From the NCBI GenBank assembly GCA_024762975.1, contig JANTGJ010000010.1:1-50360 (forward strand): a DNA stretch of 50,360 nucleotides. The letters run 5' to 3'. Below the pieces are notes generated by a model that saw nothing but the letters and a program-made list of their open reading frames with translations, made no database searches and was not told the origin of the DNA. The DNA comes from Candidatus Krumholzibacteriia bacterium. Lineage in GTDB: Bacteria; Krumholzibacteriota; Krumholzibacteriia; LZORAL124-64-63. Shown here one piece after another: positions 6,169 to 17,465 of this stretch. How positions within the stretch are numbered: position 1 is the first letter of the stretch; the number at the start of each line of letters is the position of its first letter. A program made the position numbers and the translations under genes.

Positions 6169-6348
6169 GGCCAAGAATCGAGGCTACAGGGAAACACCCC
6201 GCCCGGACGTGTGTGCCGGAAGCAACTGAACCGAGTTGCTTCAGGTGGGTCCCCTGTCCCCGGCTTCAGCCTCGACCGCGAAGGCCAAGGCATCCGACGG
6301 GAAACTCCGGAGTCCCGCTGATGAAGTGTTGGCTCACTTGTACGACAC
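6165..6348 (-). ncRNA. ssrS: Probable 6S RNA (ssrS)
   Basis: About 180-nt non-coding gap immediately downstream of zapA, the classic ssrS position. Minus strand folds as AACAC...GUGUU outer pairing, 9-bp apical hairpin GCCUUGGCC-UUCGC-GGUCGAGGC, and 3' bubble hairpin CACCU-GAAGCAAC-UCGGUUCA-GUUGCUUC-CGGCA. Ends are approximate. Confidence 0.62.
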
Positions 6349-6351
6349 CAA

Positions 6352-6684
6352 TCACGCCCCGGGCAGGGATTCGATTTCCTCGTCACGGGCCGGTTCGTCT
6401 CCCAGCTCCTGCTTCAGGAGGCGAACGATTTGCGCAGATCTATCCTCGAGCATGGCCATGGACTGGATGCTGCCTTCCTGGGAACGGATCAACTCGTCGG
6501 CGATATTGATCGCCGCCAGGATGGCGACCTTGGACGTCGATGCCATAGCCGAATTGCGCGCGACTTCGTTCATCCGGTCATGGACAAACTCCGCCACCTT
6601 CTGCACATACTCCGGGTTGGCATCCCCCTTCAGGACGTACTCGTTTCCAAAAATCTTGACTGTGACGCTTTCAGGTTCAGTCAT
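6352..6684 (-). CDS. zapA: Cell division protein ZapA
   Basis: VKIFGNEYVLKGDANPEYVQKVAEFVHDRMNEVARN...VAILAAINIADEL. Confidence 0.92.
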   Translation of the reverse strand: MTEPESVTVKIFGNEYVLKGDANPEYVQKVAEFVHDRMNEVARNSAMASTSKVAILAAINIADELIRSQEGSIQSMAMLEDRSAQIVRLLKQELGDEPARDEEIESLPGA

Positions 6685-10674: not shown

Positions 10675-11028
10675 CTAGCGAGCGTTCTTGGCGGCCTCCG
10701 CCAGCTTCGCAAAAGCGCCCTCGTCGTGGACGGCCAGGTCAGCCAGCATCTTGCGATCGATATCGATCTCGGCCAACTTCAGGCCATTGATGAAATGGCT
10801 GTAGCTCAGGCCATGCAAACGTGCTGCCGCGTTGATCCGGGTGATCCACAGGCGTCGGAAGTCGCGCTTCTTGTTGCGACGATCCCGGTACGCATAGGCC
10901 AAGGCGCGTTCGACCGTCTCGCGAGCCTGGCGGTACTGGTTTCCGCGCCCGCCGACGAAGCCCTTCGCCCGCTTCAGATACTTTTTCCGCCGTTGTTTGG
11001 CGGCAGGATTGTTTGTTGCTCTTGGCAT
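10675..11028 (-). CDS. rplT: 50S ribosomal protein L20
   Basis: [56 protein letters not shown]. Confidence 0.98.
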
Positions 11029-11389: not shown

Positions 11390-11908
11390 TCAGGCCTTCT
11401 TGGGCGCCATCACAAAACTGATCTGCCGTCCTTCGCGCTGCGGACGGGACTCCGGGGCCCCGTACTCCTCGAGCTCGGTATTGAGGTTGTTCAGAAATTC
11501 CAGGGCGAGGTCCATGTGGGAGATCTCGCGGCCCCGGAAACGCATCACGATCTTGACCTTGTTCCCGGCTTCCAGGAACGAGATGATGTGCTTTTTCTTG
11601 AACTGATAATCATGGTCATCGGTTTTGGGCCGGAACTGGATCGTCTTGACCTTCACGGTATGGGACGCCTGCCGGGCCTTCCGCGCCTTCTTGCTCAGCT
11701 CGTACTTGTACTTCCCGTAATCCATGATCTTGCATACGGGAGGGCGAGCCGTGGGCGCCACCTCGACGAGGTCCAGCCCCTTTTCCTCCGCCATGCGAAG
11801 GGCTTCCGCCGTGTCCAGAACTCCGAGCTGCTCGCCGTCATCGTCGACGACCATCACTTTCGGGATCCTGATCATCCGATTGACCCTGGTCACCTTATTG
11901 GCCTTGAT
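11390..11908 (-). CDS. infC: Translation initiation factor IF-3, ATC start
   Basis: IF3 sequence (VDDDGEQLGVLDTAEALRMAEEKGLDLVEVAPTARPPVCKIMDYGKYKYE). In-frame ATC at 11908-11906, 8 nt after AGGAGG, gives (M)KANKVTRVNRMIRIP. No upstream ATG and no better placed start. Confidence 0.85.
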   Translation of the reverse strand: MKANKVTRVNRMIRIPKVMVVDDDGEQLGVLDTAEALRMAEEKGLDLVEVAPTARPPVCKIMDYGKYKYELSKKARKARQASHTVKVKTIQFRPKTDDHDYQFKKKHIISFLEAGNKVKIVMRFRGREISHMDLALEFLNNLNTELEEYGAPESRPQREGRQISFVMAPKKA

Positions 11909-11959: not shown

Positions 11960-11985
11960 AAAAAAAGCGGACCCATAGGTCCGCC
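11960..11985 (-). terminator. Intrinsic terminator (attenuator) upstream of infC
   Basis: Minus strand GCGGACC-TATG-GGTCCGC-TTTTTTT. Confidence 0.85.
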
Positions 11986-12047
11986 GTCGGCTGGGGAACC
12001 GTTCCAGTCCCGATCCCTGCCGGGATGCGGGCCAGACACGGTGAGAG

Positions 12048-12056
12048 GGCGGACCT
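12048..12056 (-). promoter_or_regulatory. Anti-terminator segment of the infC leader
   Basis: AGGTCCGCC is perfectly complementary (9 bp) to GGCGGACCT, the 5' side of the terminator at 11977-11985. Confidence 0.6.
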
Positions 12057-12121
12057 CTGCTTGTACCTGGGAGCCGGAGAACAGCCTGATCTCCGGCTCG
12101 CTATCGATGTAGCAAGAGAAA

Positions 12122-14041
12122 CTAGCCTCTTTGGGCTATTACGTCAAGCATTTCATCGATTACCGCCTGCACGGGACGGCTTCCCTGGTCGCCCTGATGG
12201 CGAATGCGCAAAGAAACCTCACCACTCTGCGCTTCCCGGCCGCCCACGACCAGCATCCAGGGTACGCGCAGCACCTCGCCCTCCCGGATCTTGAAACCGA
12301 TTTTCTCGTCCCGGACATCGGTGCCGGCGCGCAGACCGGCAGCGCGCAACTGCTCCGCCACCTGCTCAGCATAGGCGTGTTGATCCCGGCTGACGGACAT
12401 CACTCGCACCTGTTCCGGCGCCAACCAAAGCGGGAAATCACCGGCGAAGTGCTCGGTCAGAATACCGATAAAGCGTTCTAGCGAGCCCATGATGGCCCGG
12501 TGCACCATGTAGACGTACTTCTCCTCGCCGTCGCTGTCGGTGTACTTCACGTCGAAGCGTCGCGGCAGGTTGAAGTCGAACTGGATGGTGCTGGTTTGCC
12601 AGCGGCGGCCGATCGCGTCGATCAGCTTGACATCGATCTTCGGCCCGTAGAACACCGCTTCGCCCTCTTCGCGGGTGTAGTCCAGGCCGTGCTTGTCCAG
12701 GGCCTGGATCAACGAAGCCTCGGCCGCATCCCATTCCTCATCGGTCCCGGCGTACTTCTGCTTGTTCTTTGAGTCCCGGACCGACAGCTCCACCTTGAAA
12801 TCATCGAAGCCGAAGGCGCCCATAATTTCCTTCACCAGATCGATGCACAAACTGACCTCGTCCAGCAATTGATCCGGGGTACAGAAGTGATGAGCATCGT
12901 CCTGGGTGAAACCACGCACACGCATCAGACCGTGGAGCGCCCCGTGATCCTCGGCGCGATAGACCGTACCCAGTTCAGCATACCGTACGGGCAGATTGCG
13001 CCAACCCCGCGTCCGGCGTTTGAACATCAGGATGTGGCCGGGGCAATTCATCGGCTTGACGACGTATTCGCGTTCGTCCTGCTCGAATACGTACATGTCG
13101 TCGCGATAAAACTCCATGTGTCCCGACGTATTCCACAGGCCGGCCTGGGAGATGTGCGGCGTGGTAACGGTCTCGTAGCCGTTGGCACGATGCACGTTCT
13201 TCCAGTAGTCGATGATCTGCTCTCGCAGGATGTCGCCGCGCGGGAACCAGTAGCTCAGGCCCGGACCGGCCTCTTCCATGATCCCGAAGAGATCCAATTC
13301 GCGACCCAGCTTGCGGTGATCGCGCTTCTTGGCTTCTTCGAGCATCTGAAGATGCGCATCGAGATCCTTCTTCTTGTAGAAAGCCGTTCCGTAGATCCGC
13401 TGCAGCATCGGACGCGAGGCATCCTTCTGCCAATACGCTCCGGCGATACTCAGCAGCTTGAAGGCTTTCAGGTCGCCGGTGCCGGGAACATGCGGCCCTT
13501 CGCACAAGTCGGTGAACTCCCCCACCTGATAGGCCGACAACTGCTTCTCGCCCAGGTCGGCGATCTGCTCCAGCTTGTAGGGTTGATCGGCAAAAATCCT
13601 TTCCGCCTCGTCGCGCGATATTTCGCTGCGCACCAGCGGCAACTTTTGTGCTGCCAACGCCTTCATTCTATTCTCGATGGCCTCCAGGTCGCTCTCGCTG
13701 AAGGGCTCTTCGCGATCGAAATCGTAGTAGAAGCCGCTGTCGATATCCGGGCCGAACGCGAATTTGGTGCCCGGATACAGTTCCTGCACGGCCCAGGCCA
13801 TCAAGTGCGCCGTCGAATGTCGCAGGGCACCCAGGCCTTCCTCGCTGTTCTTCGTGATGACGGTCAGTTCGCCCCCATCCCGCGCAGCCTCGGCCAACGG
13901 ATGGTGGACGCCGTTTACGGTAACGGCAGCCGCGTTGCGCAACAGTCCCTCACCAATGGCCCTGACGGCCTCGGAATACGACTCGCCCTCGGGAACGGAA
14001 ATCGAATTTCCATCCGGCAACTGGAAGCTGATCTGCGACAT
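12122..14041 (-). CDS. thrS: Threonyl-tRNA synthetase
   Basis: TGS domain, class II motifs, MNCPGHILMFK; start at MSQISFQLPDG after an SD. Confidence 0.98.
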   Translation of the reverse strand: MSQISFQLPDGNSISVPEGESYSEAVRAIGEGLLRNAAAVTVNGVHHPLAEAARDGGELTVITKNSEEGLGALRHSTAHLMAWAVQELYPGTKFAFGPDIDSGFYYDFDREEPFSESDLEAIENRMKALAAQKLPLVRSEISRDEAERIFADQPYKLEQIADLGEKQLSAYQVGEFTDLCEGPHVPGTGDLKAFKLLSIAGAYWQKDASRPMLQRIYGTAFYKKKDLDAHLQMLEEAKKRDHRKLGRELDLFGIMEEAGPGLSYWFPRGDILREQIIDYWKNVHRANGYETVTTPHISQAGLWNTSGHMEFYRDDMYVFEQDEREYVVKPMNCPGHILMFKRRTRGWRNLPVRYAELGTVYRAEDHGALHGLMRVRGFTQDDAHHFCTPDQLLDEVSLCIDLVKEIMGAFGFDDFKVELSVRDSKNKQKYAGTDEEWDAAEASLIQALDKHGLDYTREEGEAVFYGPKIDVKLIDAIGRRWQTSTIQFDFNLPRRFDVKYTDSDGEEKYVYMVHRAIMGSLERFIGILTEHFAGDFPLWLAPEQVRVMSVSRDQHAYAEQVAEQLRAAGLRAGTDVRDEKIGFKIREGEVLRVPWMLVVGGREAQSGEVSLRIRHQGDQGSRPVQAVIDEMLDVIAQRG

Positions 14042-14153
14042 CTCCAACCTTTCCTTCTCGATGTGGTACAACGAACAGAGCGACGCGCGGCCCCGCCGGC
14101 GCTGAAACTACCCGACCGTGCCGGCAGATACCATCAGCATCTTTTCAGCAAAC

Positions 14154-14188
14154 AAAAAAAGCTCCCCGCCGCGTTCCGGCAAGGAGCT
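14154..14188 (-). terminator. Intrinsic terminator after tRNA-Val
   Basis: GCTCC..GCCG..CGGC..GGAGC followed by TTTTTTT on the minus strand. Confidence 0.85.
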
Positions 14189-14201
14189 TTCAGGATCTCG
14201 G

Positions 14202-14279
14202 TGGTGGGCGATACTGGACTTGAACCAGTGACCCCTTGCGTGTCGAGCAAGTACTCTAACCAAGCTGAGCTAATCGCCC
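14202..14279 (-). tRNA. tRNA-Val (GAC), encoded CCA; unusual C33
   Basis: GGGCGAT/ATCGCCC acceptor, anticodon arm CTTGC-TCGACAC-GCAAG, T-arm ACTGG-TTCAAGT-CCAGT, ACCA. Confidence 0.9.
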
Positions 14280-14292
14280 ACCGGAACGGCGA

Positions 14293-14321
14293 AATAAAAC
14301 CACCACGTCGATTCTTGTCAA
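14293..14321 (-). promoter_or_regulatory. Promoter for tRNA-Val: TTGACA-N17-TTTATT
   Basis: Perfect -35, 17-nt spacer, 14 nt upstream of the tRNA 5' end. Confidence 0.6.
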
Positions 14322-14368
14322 CGCAAAAACCGAAATTTCGGACAAGGCGGAATCCACCCCAACGAAAA

Positions 14369-15223
14369 TCAGTTCAGGTAGTCGACCAATCGCTCGCCGT
14401 GGCCGTGCTGGCGCATTTTGTTCAGCGCCTGGTTTCGGATCTGGCGGACGCGTTCGCGGGAAAGATGAATATCCTGCCCGATGGTCTCCAGCGAAGCGGT
14501 CTCGACCGCTCCCAGACCGTAGTACCGGGTCACGATATCCTTCTCACGAGCAGTCAGCAGGCTCATCGCACCATCGAGCTCCGCGCTCAGCTGCATGCTG
14601 GCAAATCCCTCATCCGGAATGACGTCATCAGGATTCGCAAGAACCTCAGCCAGAGTCACCGATTCTTCGTACATCGGCTGATCGAGACTGACCATGGGCC
14701 GACTGGCGGCACGGATCTGCCCCATCTTGCGCGTCGAGAGGCTCATGGCCTCGGCCAGTTCCTGCTCGTCGACACTGCGGTGCAGTTTCTGCTCGAGCTT
14801 GCGACTCATCTTTTTCATACGCTGTGCCTGCTGCGACCGGTTGATCGGCAACCGCACCGTATTGGTCTGCTCGGCGATCGCCTTCTGGATCGCCTGGCGA
14901 ATCCACCAGACCGCATACGAAATGAAGCGGAATTCCCGCCGTTCATCGAAACGCTTGGCGGCGGTAATCAAACCGATGTTGCCCTCGGCGATCAGGTCCA
15001 TATAGCTCAGTCCCTGATTCAGGAACTTCTTGGCCACACTGACCACGAAGCGCAGGTTCGAATTGACGAGCTTGTCGAGAGCCGCCTTATCACCACCGCG
15101 AATCCGCGTTGCGAGTTCAAACTCTTCCTCTCGAGTCAGCAACCGGTGCTTGCCGATGGTCTGGAGGTAGTGCTGCAAACTGGAATCTTCTCGCCGATCG
15201 CGGCTCAGTTCTACTTCGTACAC
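14369..15223 (-). CDS. RpoD/SigA-family sigma factor
   Basis: Region 2 (NLRFVVSVAKKFLNQGLSYMDLIAEGNIGLITAAKRFDERREFRFISYAVWWIRQAI), regions 3 and 4 present. GTG start with GAGGAGG SD. Confidence 0.95.
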   Translation of the reverse strand: MYEVELSRDRREDSSLQHYLQTIGKHRLLTREEEFELATRIRGGDKAALDKLVNSNLRFVVSVAKKFLNQGLSYMDLIAEGNIGLITAAKRFDERREFRFISYAVWWIRQAIQKAIAEQTNTVRLPINRSQQAQRMKKMSRKLEQKLHRSVDEQELAEAMSLSTRKMGQIRAASRPMVSLDQPMYEESVTLAEVLANPDDVIPDEGFASMQLSAELDGAMSLLTAREKDIVTRYYGLGAVETASLETIGQDIHLSRERVRQIRNQALNKMRQHGHGERLVDYLN

Positions 15224-15393
15224 TGGGTCCTCCTCGTGCCCGGGCTGCCGGGCATTCTATATTCTGACCGAAGCGGTCAATTTTTTATTTGCACGAATCG
15301 TTCGTATTACGCAACAGTACCGAATTAGTTCCCATTATCCCCAGATCGGCACGTCGCGGGCTTTCTTTATTCGCGAACGATTCCGGTTAGCAG

Positions 15394-15495: not shown

Positions 15496-15545
15496 CTACC
15501 AGATGAACATCGAATTGCAAGTGAAATCCGACCGGTTTGCTCTAC

Positions 15546-17465
15546 CTAGTCATCGTCCACGACCTCGTAGTCTGCATCGACAGCGCCGTCGTCGCCGCCC
15601 TGGTTGGGCGTCTCCGCTTCGGGGCCGGCCTGTTGGGCCTCGTCCGCACCGCCTCCCTGGGCAGCCGAAGCCTTCTCGTAGGCCTTGCTGGCCAGGGCCT
15701 GGACCGCAGTCATCAGCGCATCACTGGCCGTACGGATCATCGCGACATCTTCGCTGGTCATGACTTCCTCGAGCGCCTTGATCTTCATCTCGACGTCGGA
15801 TTTCAGCTCCGCATCCAGGTCATCGCCCAGATCCTCCATGCTCTTGTTCGCAGCATGGATCCTGGCTTCGGCCTCATTGCGCACGTCAATCAGCTCGCGG
15901 CGCTGCTTATCCGCGTCGGCGTTCGCCTCGGCGTCATGCACCATCCGTTCGACTTCCTCATCGGACAGGCCGCTCGACGCCTGGATCTTGATCGACTGCT
16001 CCTTGCCCGTCGCCTTGTCGACCGCACTGACCGACAGGATGCCGTTGGCGTCGATATCGAAGGTGACTTCGATCTGCGGGGTGCCGCGCGGCGCCGAGGG
16101 AATTCCCGTCAGCTGGAAACGACCGATGGTCTTGTTGTCGATCGCCATTTCCCGCTCCCCCTGGAGCACGTGAATATCGACCGTCGGCTGATTGTCCGCG
16201 GCCGTCGAGAAGATCTGGCTCTTTTTCGTCGGAATGGTCGTATTGCGGTCGATCAGCCGGGTCATCACACTACCCAGGGTTTCGATTCCCAGGGAAAGCG
16301 GGGTGACGTCCAGCAGCACGATGTCCATATCTTCGCCACCCAGGACGCCCCCCTGAATCGCGGCACCCATGCCTACAACCTCATCCGGGTTCACCGTCCG
16401 GTTGGGCTCTTTGCCGAAGAGTTTTTCCACCTGTGCGGCCACTGCGGGAATGCGTGTGGAACCACCGACCAGCAGAATCTCATCGATATCCGACGGAGAC
16501 AGGCCCGCGTCCTTCAGACAGCTCAGACACGGCTGTGCCGTACGTTCCACCAGATCCTCCACCAGGCTCTCGAACTTGGAGCGGGTCAGCGTCAGGGTCA
16601 GGTGTTTCGGCCCGTTCTGATCCGCGGTGATGAACGGCAGATTGATCTCGGTCTGGCTGGAGCTGCTCAACTCCCGCTTGGCCAACTCCGCCGCCTCCTT
16701 CAGGCGTTGCAGCGCCATCGGATCCTTGCTCAGGTCGATGCCCTCCTGTTTCAGGAAGGTATCCACCAGGTGGTCGATCACGCGCTGATCGAAGTCGTCA
16801 CCGCCCAGGTGGGTATCTCCATTCGTGGCCAATACCGAAAACACACCGTCGACGATCTCGAGAATCGAGATATCGAACGTTCCGCCGCCGAGATCAAAGA
16901 CCGCAATGGTCTCCTCCCCCTTGCGTTCCAGGCCGTAGGCCAGCGCAGCCGCCGTCGGCTCGTTGATGATGCGCTTGACCTCCAGGCCGGCGATCTTGCC
17001 CGCATCCTTCGTGGCCTGTCGCTGGCTGTCATTGAAGTACGCCGGCACGGTAATCACGGCCTCGGTAACGGATTCGCCCAGATATTCCTCCGCCGTCTCC
17101 TTCAGAGATCGAAGGACCTGCGCCGAGATCTCAGGCGGCGTGAATTGGCCGTGACCGGTTTTGATGGTCACTTCACCGTGCGCACCCTTTTCGATGGTGT
17201 AGGGCACTTCCTGCATTTCATTGGAAACTTCATCGAATCGACGCCCCATGAAGCGCTTGATCGAGTAGACCGTATCGGTAGGGTTGGTGACTGCCTGCCG
17301 CTTGGCCAGCAGACCGACCAGCCGTTCTCCCGCCTTGTTCCACGCGACCACCGACGGCGTCGTGCGGTTGCCTTCGCTGTTTTGAATGACCTTGGGCTCT
17401 CCGCCCTCCATGACTGAAACAACACTGTTGGTCGTTCCCAGATCGATCCCGATAATCTTGCCCAT
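15546..17465 (-). CDS. dnaK: Chaperone DnaK (Hsp70)
   Basis: [22 protein letters not shown]...; 639 aa; C-terminal acidic tail [10 protein letters not shown]. Confidence 0.99.

Follow-up and report, generated by a model that had tools for sequence, protein, structure and literature searches.

The region between thrS and infC in the window, by which we mean the whole 50,360-nucleotide stretch of DNA analyzed here, very likely encodes an L20-type attenuator, in which ribosomal protein L20 holds a hairpin of the leader (H2) and causes termination, and in which, without L20, an antiterminator formed by two leader segments (segments 1 and 2) gives readthrough. Both L20 as the ligand and the direction of the response are proposed from sequence. 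The leader precedes infC (IF3; 11390..11908; NCBIfam TIGR00168) with its AGGAGG Shine-Dalgarno sequence (11922-11917), rpmI (L35; 11089..11289; TIGR00001), and rplT (10675..11028; TIGR01032), the product of which, L20, would be the leader ligand. NCBIfam confirmed the identities of thrS, infC, rpmI, rplT, and pheS. All genes and leader elements given below lie on the minus strand unless noted otherwise.

The leader is ordered as a promoter (TTGACG-N17-TAGTTT), a hairpin (P0), a core of the form AAGN-[H2]-CACC...GGU in which CACC and GGU belong to a second helix (H1), and a terminator. The -35 element TTGACG (12142..12147) lies inside the thrS end and the -10 element TAGTTT (12119..12124) overlaps the thrS stop codon TAG, which would place the transcription start near 12112. 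P0 (12071..12099) is formed by GAGCCGGAGA (12099-12090) and TCTCCGGCTC (12080-12071), and its loop GGCTG (12086-12082) is complementary to CAGCC (11989..11993), a probable pairing. AAGC (12059..12062), whose AA may be the dimer recognized by L20, lies 5' of the H2 hairpin AGAGG-TCCGC-CCTCT (12044..12058). Segment 1, AGGTCCGCC (12048..12056), consists of the H2 loop and part of both arms and forms the 5' strand of the antiterminator. The H1 strands are ACCGT (12038..12042, the CACC box) and ACGGT (11998..12002, the GGU box). Segment 2, GGCGGACCT (11977..11985), serves as both the 3' strand of the antiterminator and the 5' arm of the terminator, GCGGACC-TATG-GGTCCGC-T7 (11960..11984), which includes the loop TATG (11977-11974), segment 3 (GGTCCGC, 11973-11967) as the 3' arm, and a run of seven T residues 3' of it (11966-11960). 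A preliminary description of this DNA had reported the three segments and the 10-bp P0 hairpin, and all of them lie where it placed them when the minus strand is read. The perfect 9-nucleotide complementarity of segments 1 and 2 is likewise present, as is the terminator formed by segments 2 and 3 with its T7 run, a site that a terminator scan also listed as intrinsic-terminator-like.

We compared the infC-upstream regions of the window's family and seven other families of its class (f1 to f8). All 62 complete leaders contained AAGN, H2, CACC, and a distant GGU closing H1, with H1 unclear in the two f5 leaders and the H1 end placed by hand in 7 of the 62. The core was absent from two infC-upstream stretches. 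One, L106, is located at the end of a contig; the other, L105 (G009:C274), is on a leaderless contig of 654 bases whose IF3 gene is a second one, sharing 48% identity with that of the window and representing contamination or a paralogue. Over 30 aligned cores, in which AAG 5' of H2 and CACC with GGU in H1 are the invariant letters, 94.8% of the H2 and H1 cells were standard pairs, and shifting the partner by one column reduced pairing to 57% or less. Two-sided changes occurred in 8 of the 11 H2 and H1 pairs, with all six pairs of H2 covarying, and none of 500 shuffles reached the covariation score, a comparison uncorrected for kinship. The segment-1 core was also found by BLASTN within the thrS-infC gap of 16 of 37 related genomes, with most matches covering the stretch starting CAAGCAGAGGTCCGCCC. 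R1, a covariance model built from the core, scored one site strongly in the window (52.7 bits; the next scored 7.2) and gave a match in 45 of the 48 good genomes from the window's phylum, which one class represented in the search.

The switch itself is also kept in relatives. The preliminary description had proposed an attenuator ahead of infC-rpmI-rplT and had made covariation of its 1:2 and 2:3 pairings in relatives its own test; both pairings are maintained there with changed letters. In f1, f2, and f4, the terminator 5' arm is complementary to the H2 loop and 3' arm, with differing letters: AGGTCCGCC:GGCGGACCT in the window, CGGTCC:GGACCG in L075, GAACTGCTTCT:AGGAGCAGTTC in L083, CGGTCTGCTT:GAGCAGACCG in L085, and GTGTCACCT:AGGTGACGC in L090. 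The mean score of the segment 1:2 pairing was 20.4, compared with 18.1 ± 0.5 when partners were permuted (reached in 0 of 5,000 permutations), and f1 alone gave a p value of 0.016, with relatedness uncorrected in both tests. We did not detect a clear pairing of H2 with the terminator arm in three f1 leaders (L033, L081, and L082) or in families f6 and f8. For f3 and f7, we rejected this pairing (observed score of 10.07 versus 10.14 for permuted partners). An alternative antiterminator in these two families pairs GGUUUCAUC, behind H1, with the terminator arm, scoring 17.15 compared with 10.23 ± 0.62 for shuffled sequences. The perfect 9-nucleotide complement of segment 2 lies 62 nucleotides upstream of it. 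A perfect complement of this length arose by chance in the upstream leader in 14 of 5,000 dinucleotide shuffles (approximately 0.3%), and the leader folded better than its own shuffles (z = -3.2); the question of a chance origin is settled by conservation in relatives. In foldings of the window's leader, the antiterminator was 5 kcal/mol better than H2 before segment 3 was made, and H2 with the terminator was 2 kcal/mol better once segment 3 was made, as in a leader that gives readthrough by default and terminates only when H2 is held.

Three features of L20 leaders were observed: the junction of H2 and H1 is conserved and carries AAG and consecutive G-C pairs, the leader lies upstream of infC-rpmI-rplT, and an intrinsic terminator excludes an alternative pairing. 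The consensus of the Rfam L20_leader family RF00558, AAGaAGAAGCACCCGCUUCUCgCCU...CAGGc followed by a terminator, has the same AAG, H2, and H1 as the window, and its core, AAG-H2-(A/G)CC...GG(U/C), is shared with the window's class. An Rfam scan at the gathering score gave no match at the window's leader. The RF00558 search that the preliminary description had proposed as a check scored this leader at 17.2 bits (E of 2.2), below the gathering score of 58.7, and scored two class members outside the window's family at 53.0 bits (E of 3.6e-8) and 40.0 bits, also below it. Each of the latter matches was the best in its genome and each lay before infC, and the f3 members, with their 53 bits, can be aligned to the leader as it occurs in the window. 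None of 34 genomes of relatives exceeded the gathering score, and weak RF00558 matches in f1 genomes lay mostly elsewhere, so that scores of 17 to 32 bits mean little alone. The shared core and the scores of these sister families contradict the earlier impression that the sequence does not resemble the Firmicutes L20 class and do not support its being an independent leader; the suggestion of the preliminary description that this is an L20 leader in another phylum is most likely right.

The H1/H2 junction is the L20-binding site of the Bacillus subtilis leader, and L20 bound there stabilizes the terminator (PMC6097659). In L20 leaders, two consecutive G-C pairs occur together with an AA dimer, as they do in 23S rRNA (PMC7247131). 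The window's leader resembles the B. subtilis infC leader and RF00558 in its terminator/antiterminator switch upstream of infC-rpmI-rplT and in the order of AAG, H2, H1, and terminator, and the invariant letters of the window's class fall at the H1/H2 junction, the site of L20 binding in the B. subtilis leader. By analogy, the invariant AAG and ACC:GGU would represent the same L20 contacts. In contrast to RF00558, the window's leader is GC-rich, has a long variable H1 interior, comes from a different phylum, has an additional P0 with a probable loop pairing, and has a promoter overlapping the thrS stop codon.

We also searched 80 named IF3 loci with R1. The infC-upstream regions of one Gemmatimonadetes genome (29 bits) and of eleven Actinobacteria (11 to 20 bits) contained the core, and no R1 match lay just upstream of infC in the named Proteobacteria, Acidobacteria, and others among these loci. 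Three more Actinobacteria showed the core by eye and one further locus was too short to tell, so that 14 of 14 testable Actinobacteria carry it. Single actinobacterial R1 scores are near genome-wide noise, and we accepted the actinobacterial core because of its constant place and its alignment. In a sample of the Gemmatimonadetes phylum, 19 of 81 genomes passed an E value of 1e-4, and nine of the matches fetched had IF3 directly downstream of the motif. No Rfam family matched at its gathering score the six core-bearing infC-upstream loci tested from this survey. The actinobacterial terminator is located further downstream than that of the window. For Mycobacterium tuberculosis, one paper described an infC 5' UTR of 326 nucleotides whose signal was 2.6 to 4.9 times as strong as the signal of the gene, the pattern that attenuation would produce, and named L20 control only by analogy (PMC3207917); the core is present in other mycobacterial and nocardial infC leaders.

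These cores bear on whether the same protein-binding motif could have arisen independently in the window's phylum, making the leader an L20 leader by convergence. The L20 leaders of Escherichia coli and Deltaproteobacteria present one and the same rRNA-like motif on different scaffolds (PMC7247131), the Rfam score of the window itself does not rise above noise, and antiterminators vary between families. Against these points, AAG, H2, H1, and the terminator occur in the same order and spacing before the same operon, the 53-bit f3 members align with the window's form, and related cores occur in Gemmatimonadetes and Actinobacteria, and we regard convergence as unlikely. The Deltaproteobacteria candidate of Eckert and Weinberg (2020) is, like the window's leader, a prediction, and it likewise combines an AA dimer with two G-C pairs (PMC7247131), but it was described as another structural scaffold, and no Rfam family of it matched the window's leader. 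The case is evenly balanced for a broader proposal, in which the L20 leader would be an old switch common to the window's phylum, Gemmatimonadetes, Actinobacteria, and Firmicutes, with the core kept, the antiterminator rebuilt more than once (f1, f2, and f4 using the H2 loop and f3 the strand that follows H1), and a pseudoknot closing the L20 site gained in the window's family.

An attenuator with the same mechanics might instead sense IF3, L35, or another factor, which we consider very unlikely. infC is the first gene of the operon, and E. coli IF3 controls its own gene (PMC10931766), but such a core is not used in that control, the core observed here fits the L20 leader consensus and known L20 determinants, and rplT lies within the operon. 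As in the proposed attenuator, L20 in E. coli regulates the gene cluster that encodes it, and a pseudoknot forms part of the E. coli L20 site (PMC10931766). In contrast to what we propose for the window, E. coli L20 acts on rpmI-rplT translation through sites within the cluster; infC is not subject to L20 control there, and no attenuator precedes infC.

The preliminary description overlooked the leader's own conserved promoter at the thrS end. The pattern TTGAC[GCT]-N17-TANNNT, with the -10 element on the thrS stop codon, was present in 60 of 62 leaders; the other two, both in f2, miss the strict pattern and by eye have TTGACA followed 18 nucleotides on by TAGATC or TATTCG. The Leu codon carrying the -35 element in f1 is CTT in 36 of 36 cases, and CTT accounts for only 11% of f1 Leu codons. 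In f3, the base 5' of TTGAC is mostly G, indicating that the residue differs and the DNA is kept. In L086 (f4; L086/L029), a tRNA gene occupies the place expected for thrS, and the promoter and leader are still ahead of infC. Judging from these patterns, the promoter is probably active. With a promoter between thrS and the terminator, the terminator would cut infC's own transcript. That it is a plain terminator of the thrS transcript with incidental extra complementarity is extremely improbable, since the good intrinsic terminator between two genes and the rare chance complement that favor this idea are opposed by the phylum-wide core with its covariation and by the conserved promoter.

The preliminary description had P0 precede the switch; its position holds, and P0 is probably part of the switch, as its loop is complementary to the strand immediately 5' of the terminator. 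This complementarity is GGGU:ACCC in most leaders, with variants CGGGAU:AUCCCG (L014), CGGGAA:UUCCCG (L016), CAGGAU:AUCCUG (L057), and GGCUG:CAGCC (window). The pairing scored 12.47, compared with 10.85 ± 0.38 for letter shuffles, and a permutation test gave weaker support (p = 0.008 for all leaders and 0.053 for representatives, kinship uncorrected). The most variable position was U:A in 14 leaders, A:U in 6, and A:A in 1 (Fisher p = 1.3e-4 by sequence and 0.048 by genus). About a third of the window's family lacks both partners. The P0 loop and linker probably pair to close a pseudoknot around the core. By eye, L138 and other actinobacterial loci have GACCG (GACCAG in Coriobacteriia) upstream of the core, complementary to CGGUC (CUGGUC) right behind H1, which is perhaps a counterpart of the P0-loop pairing.

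In the L20 attenuator that we propose, RNA polymerase would start at the thrS-end promoter, and the leader would fold P0 first and then the H2/H1 core. When free L20 is scarce, segment 1 would pair with the emerging segment 2, no terminator would form, and the operon would be transcribed. Free L20 in excess would bind the H1/H2 junction, with AAG beside the CC:GG pairs, and lock H2, perhaps aided by the P0-loop pseudoknot. With H2 locked, segment 2 would be free for segment 3, and transcription would stop at approximately 11960.

Leaders that respond to ribosomal proteins are regarded as having a narrow distribution. This picture would change with a phylum-wide relative of the L20 leader and with cores in Actinobacteria, mycobacteria among them, and the window's class and the actinobacterial cores would offer new L20 leaders to test. 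The families would also provide a natural series in which the protein-binding core stays constant and the antiterminator coupled to it varies. The Firmicutes type of L20 leader has been assigned to Firmicutes only (PMC6097659) or to Firmicutes and Thermotogales, with a re-examination of lineages seeming to lack the leader urged (PMC3766115). These assignments come from open-access papers, and an earlier report may exist elsewhere.

Other observations concern infC and the surrounding DNA. The infC start codon is apparently AUC rather than AUG (11906-11908), 3' of AGGAGG, and AUC or AUU is found at this position in most relatives, as expected under autocontrol by IF3 through the start codon. A strong intrinsic terminator (14157-14191) directly follows tRNA-Val (14202-14279) and precedes thrS. 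Long antisense open reading frames on the plus strand at 12869-15328 (819 amino acids, opposite thrS and a sigma factor gene) and 15537-17417 (626 amino acids, opposite dnaK) are probably a by-product of codon bias. Finally, we detected a 6S RNA at 6192-6372, scoring 67.2 bits against a cutoff of 46.4.
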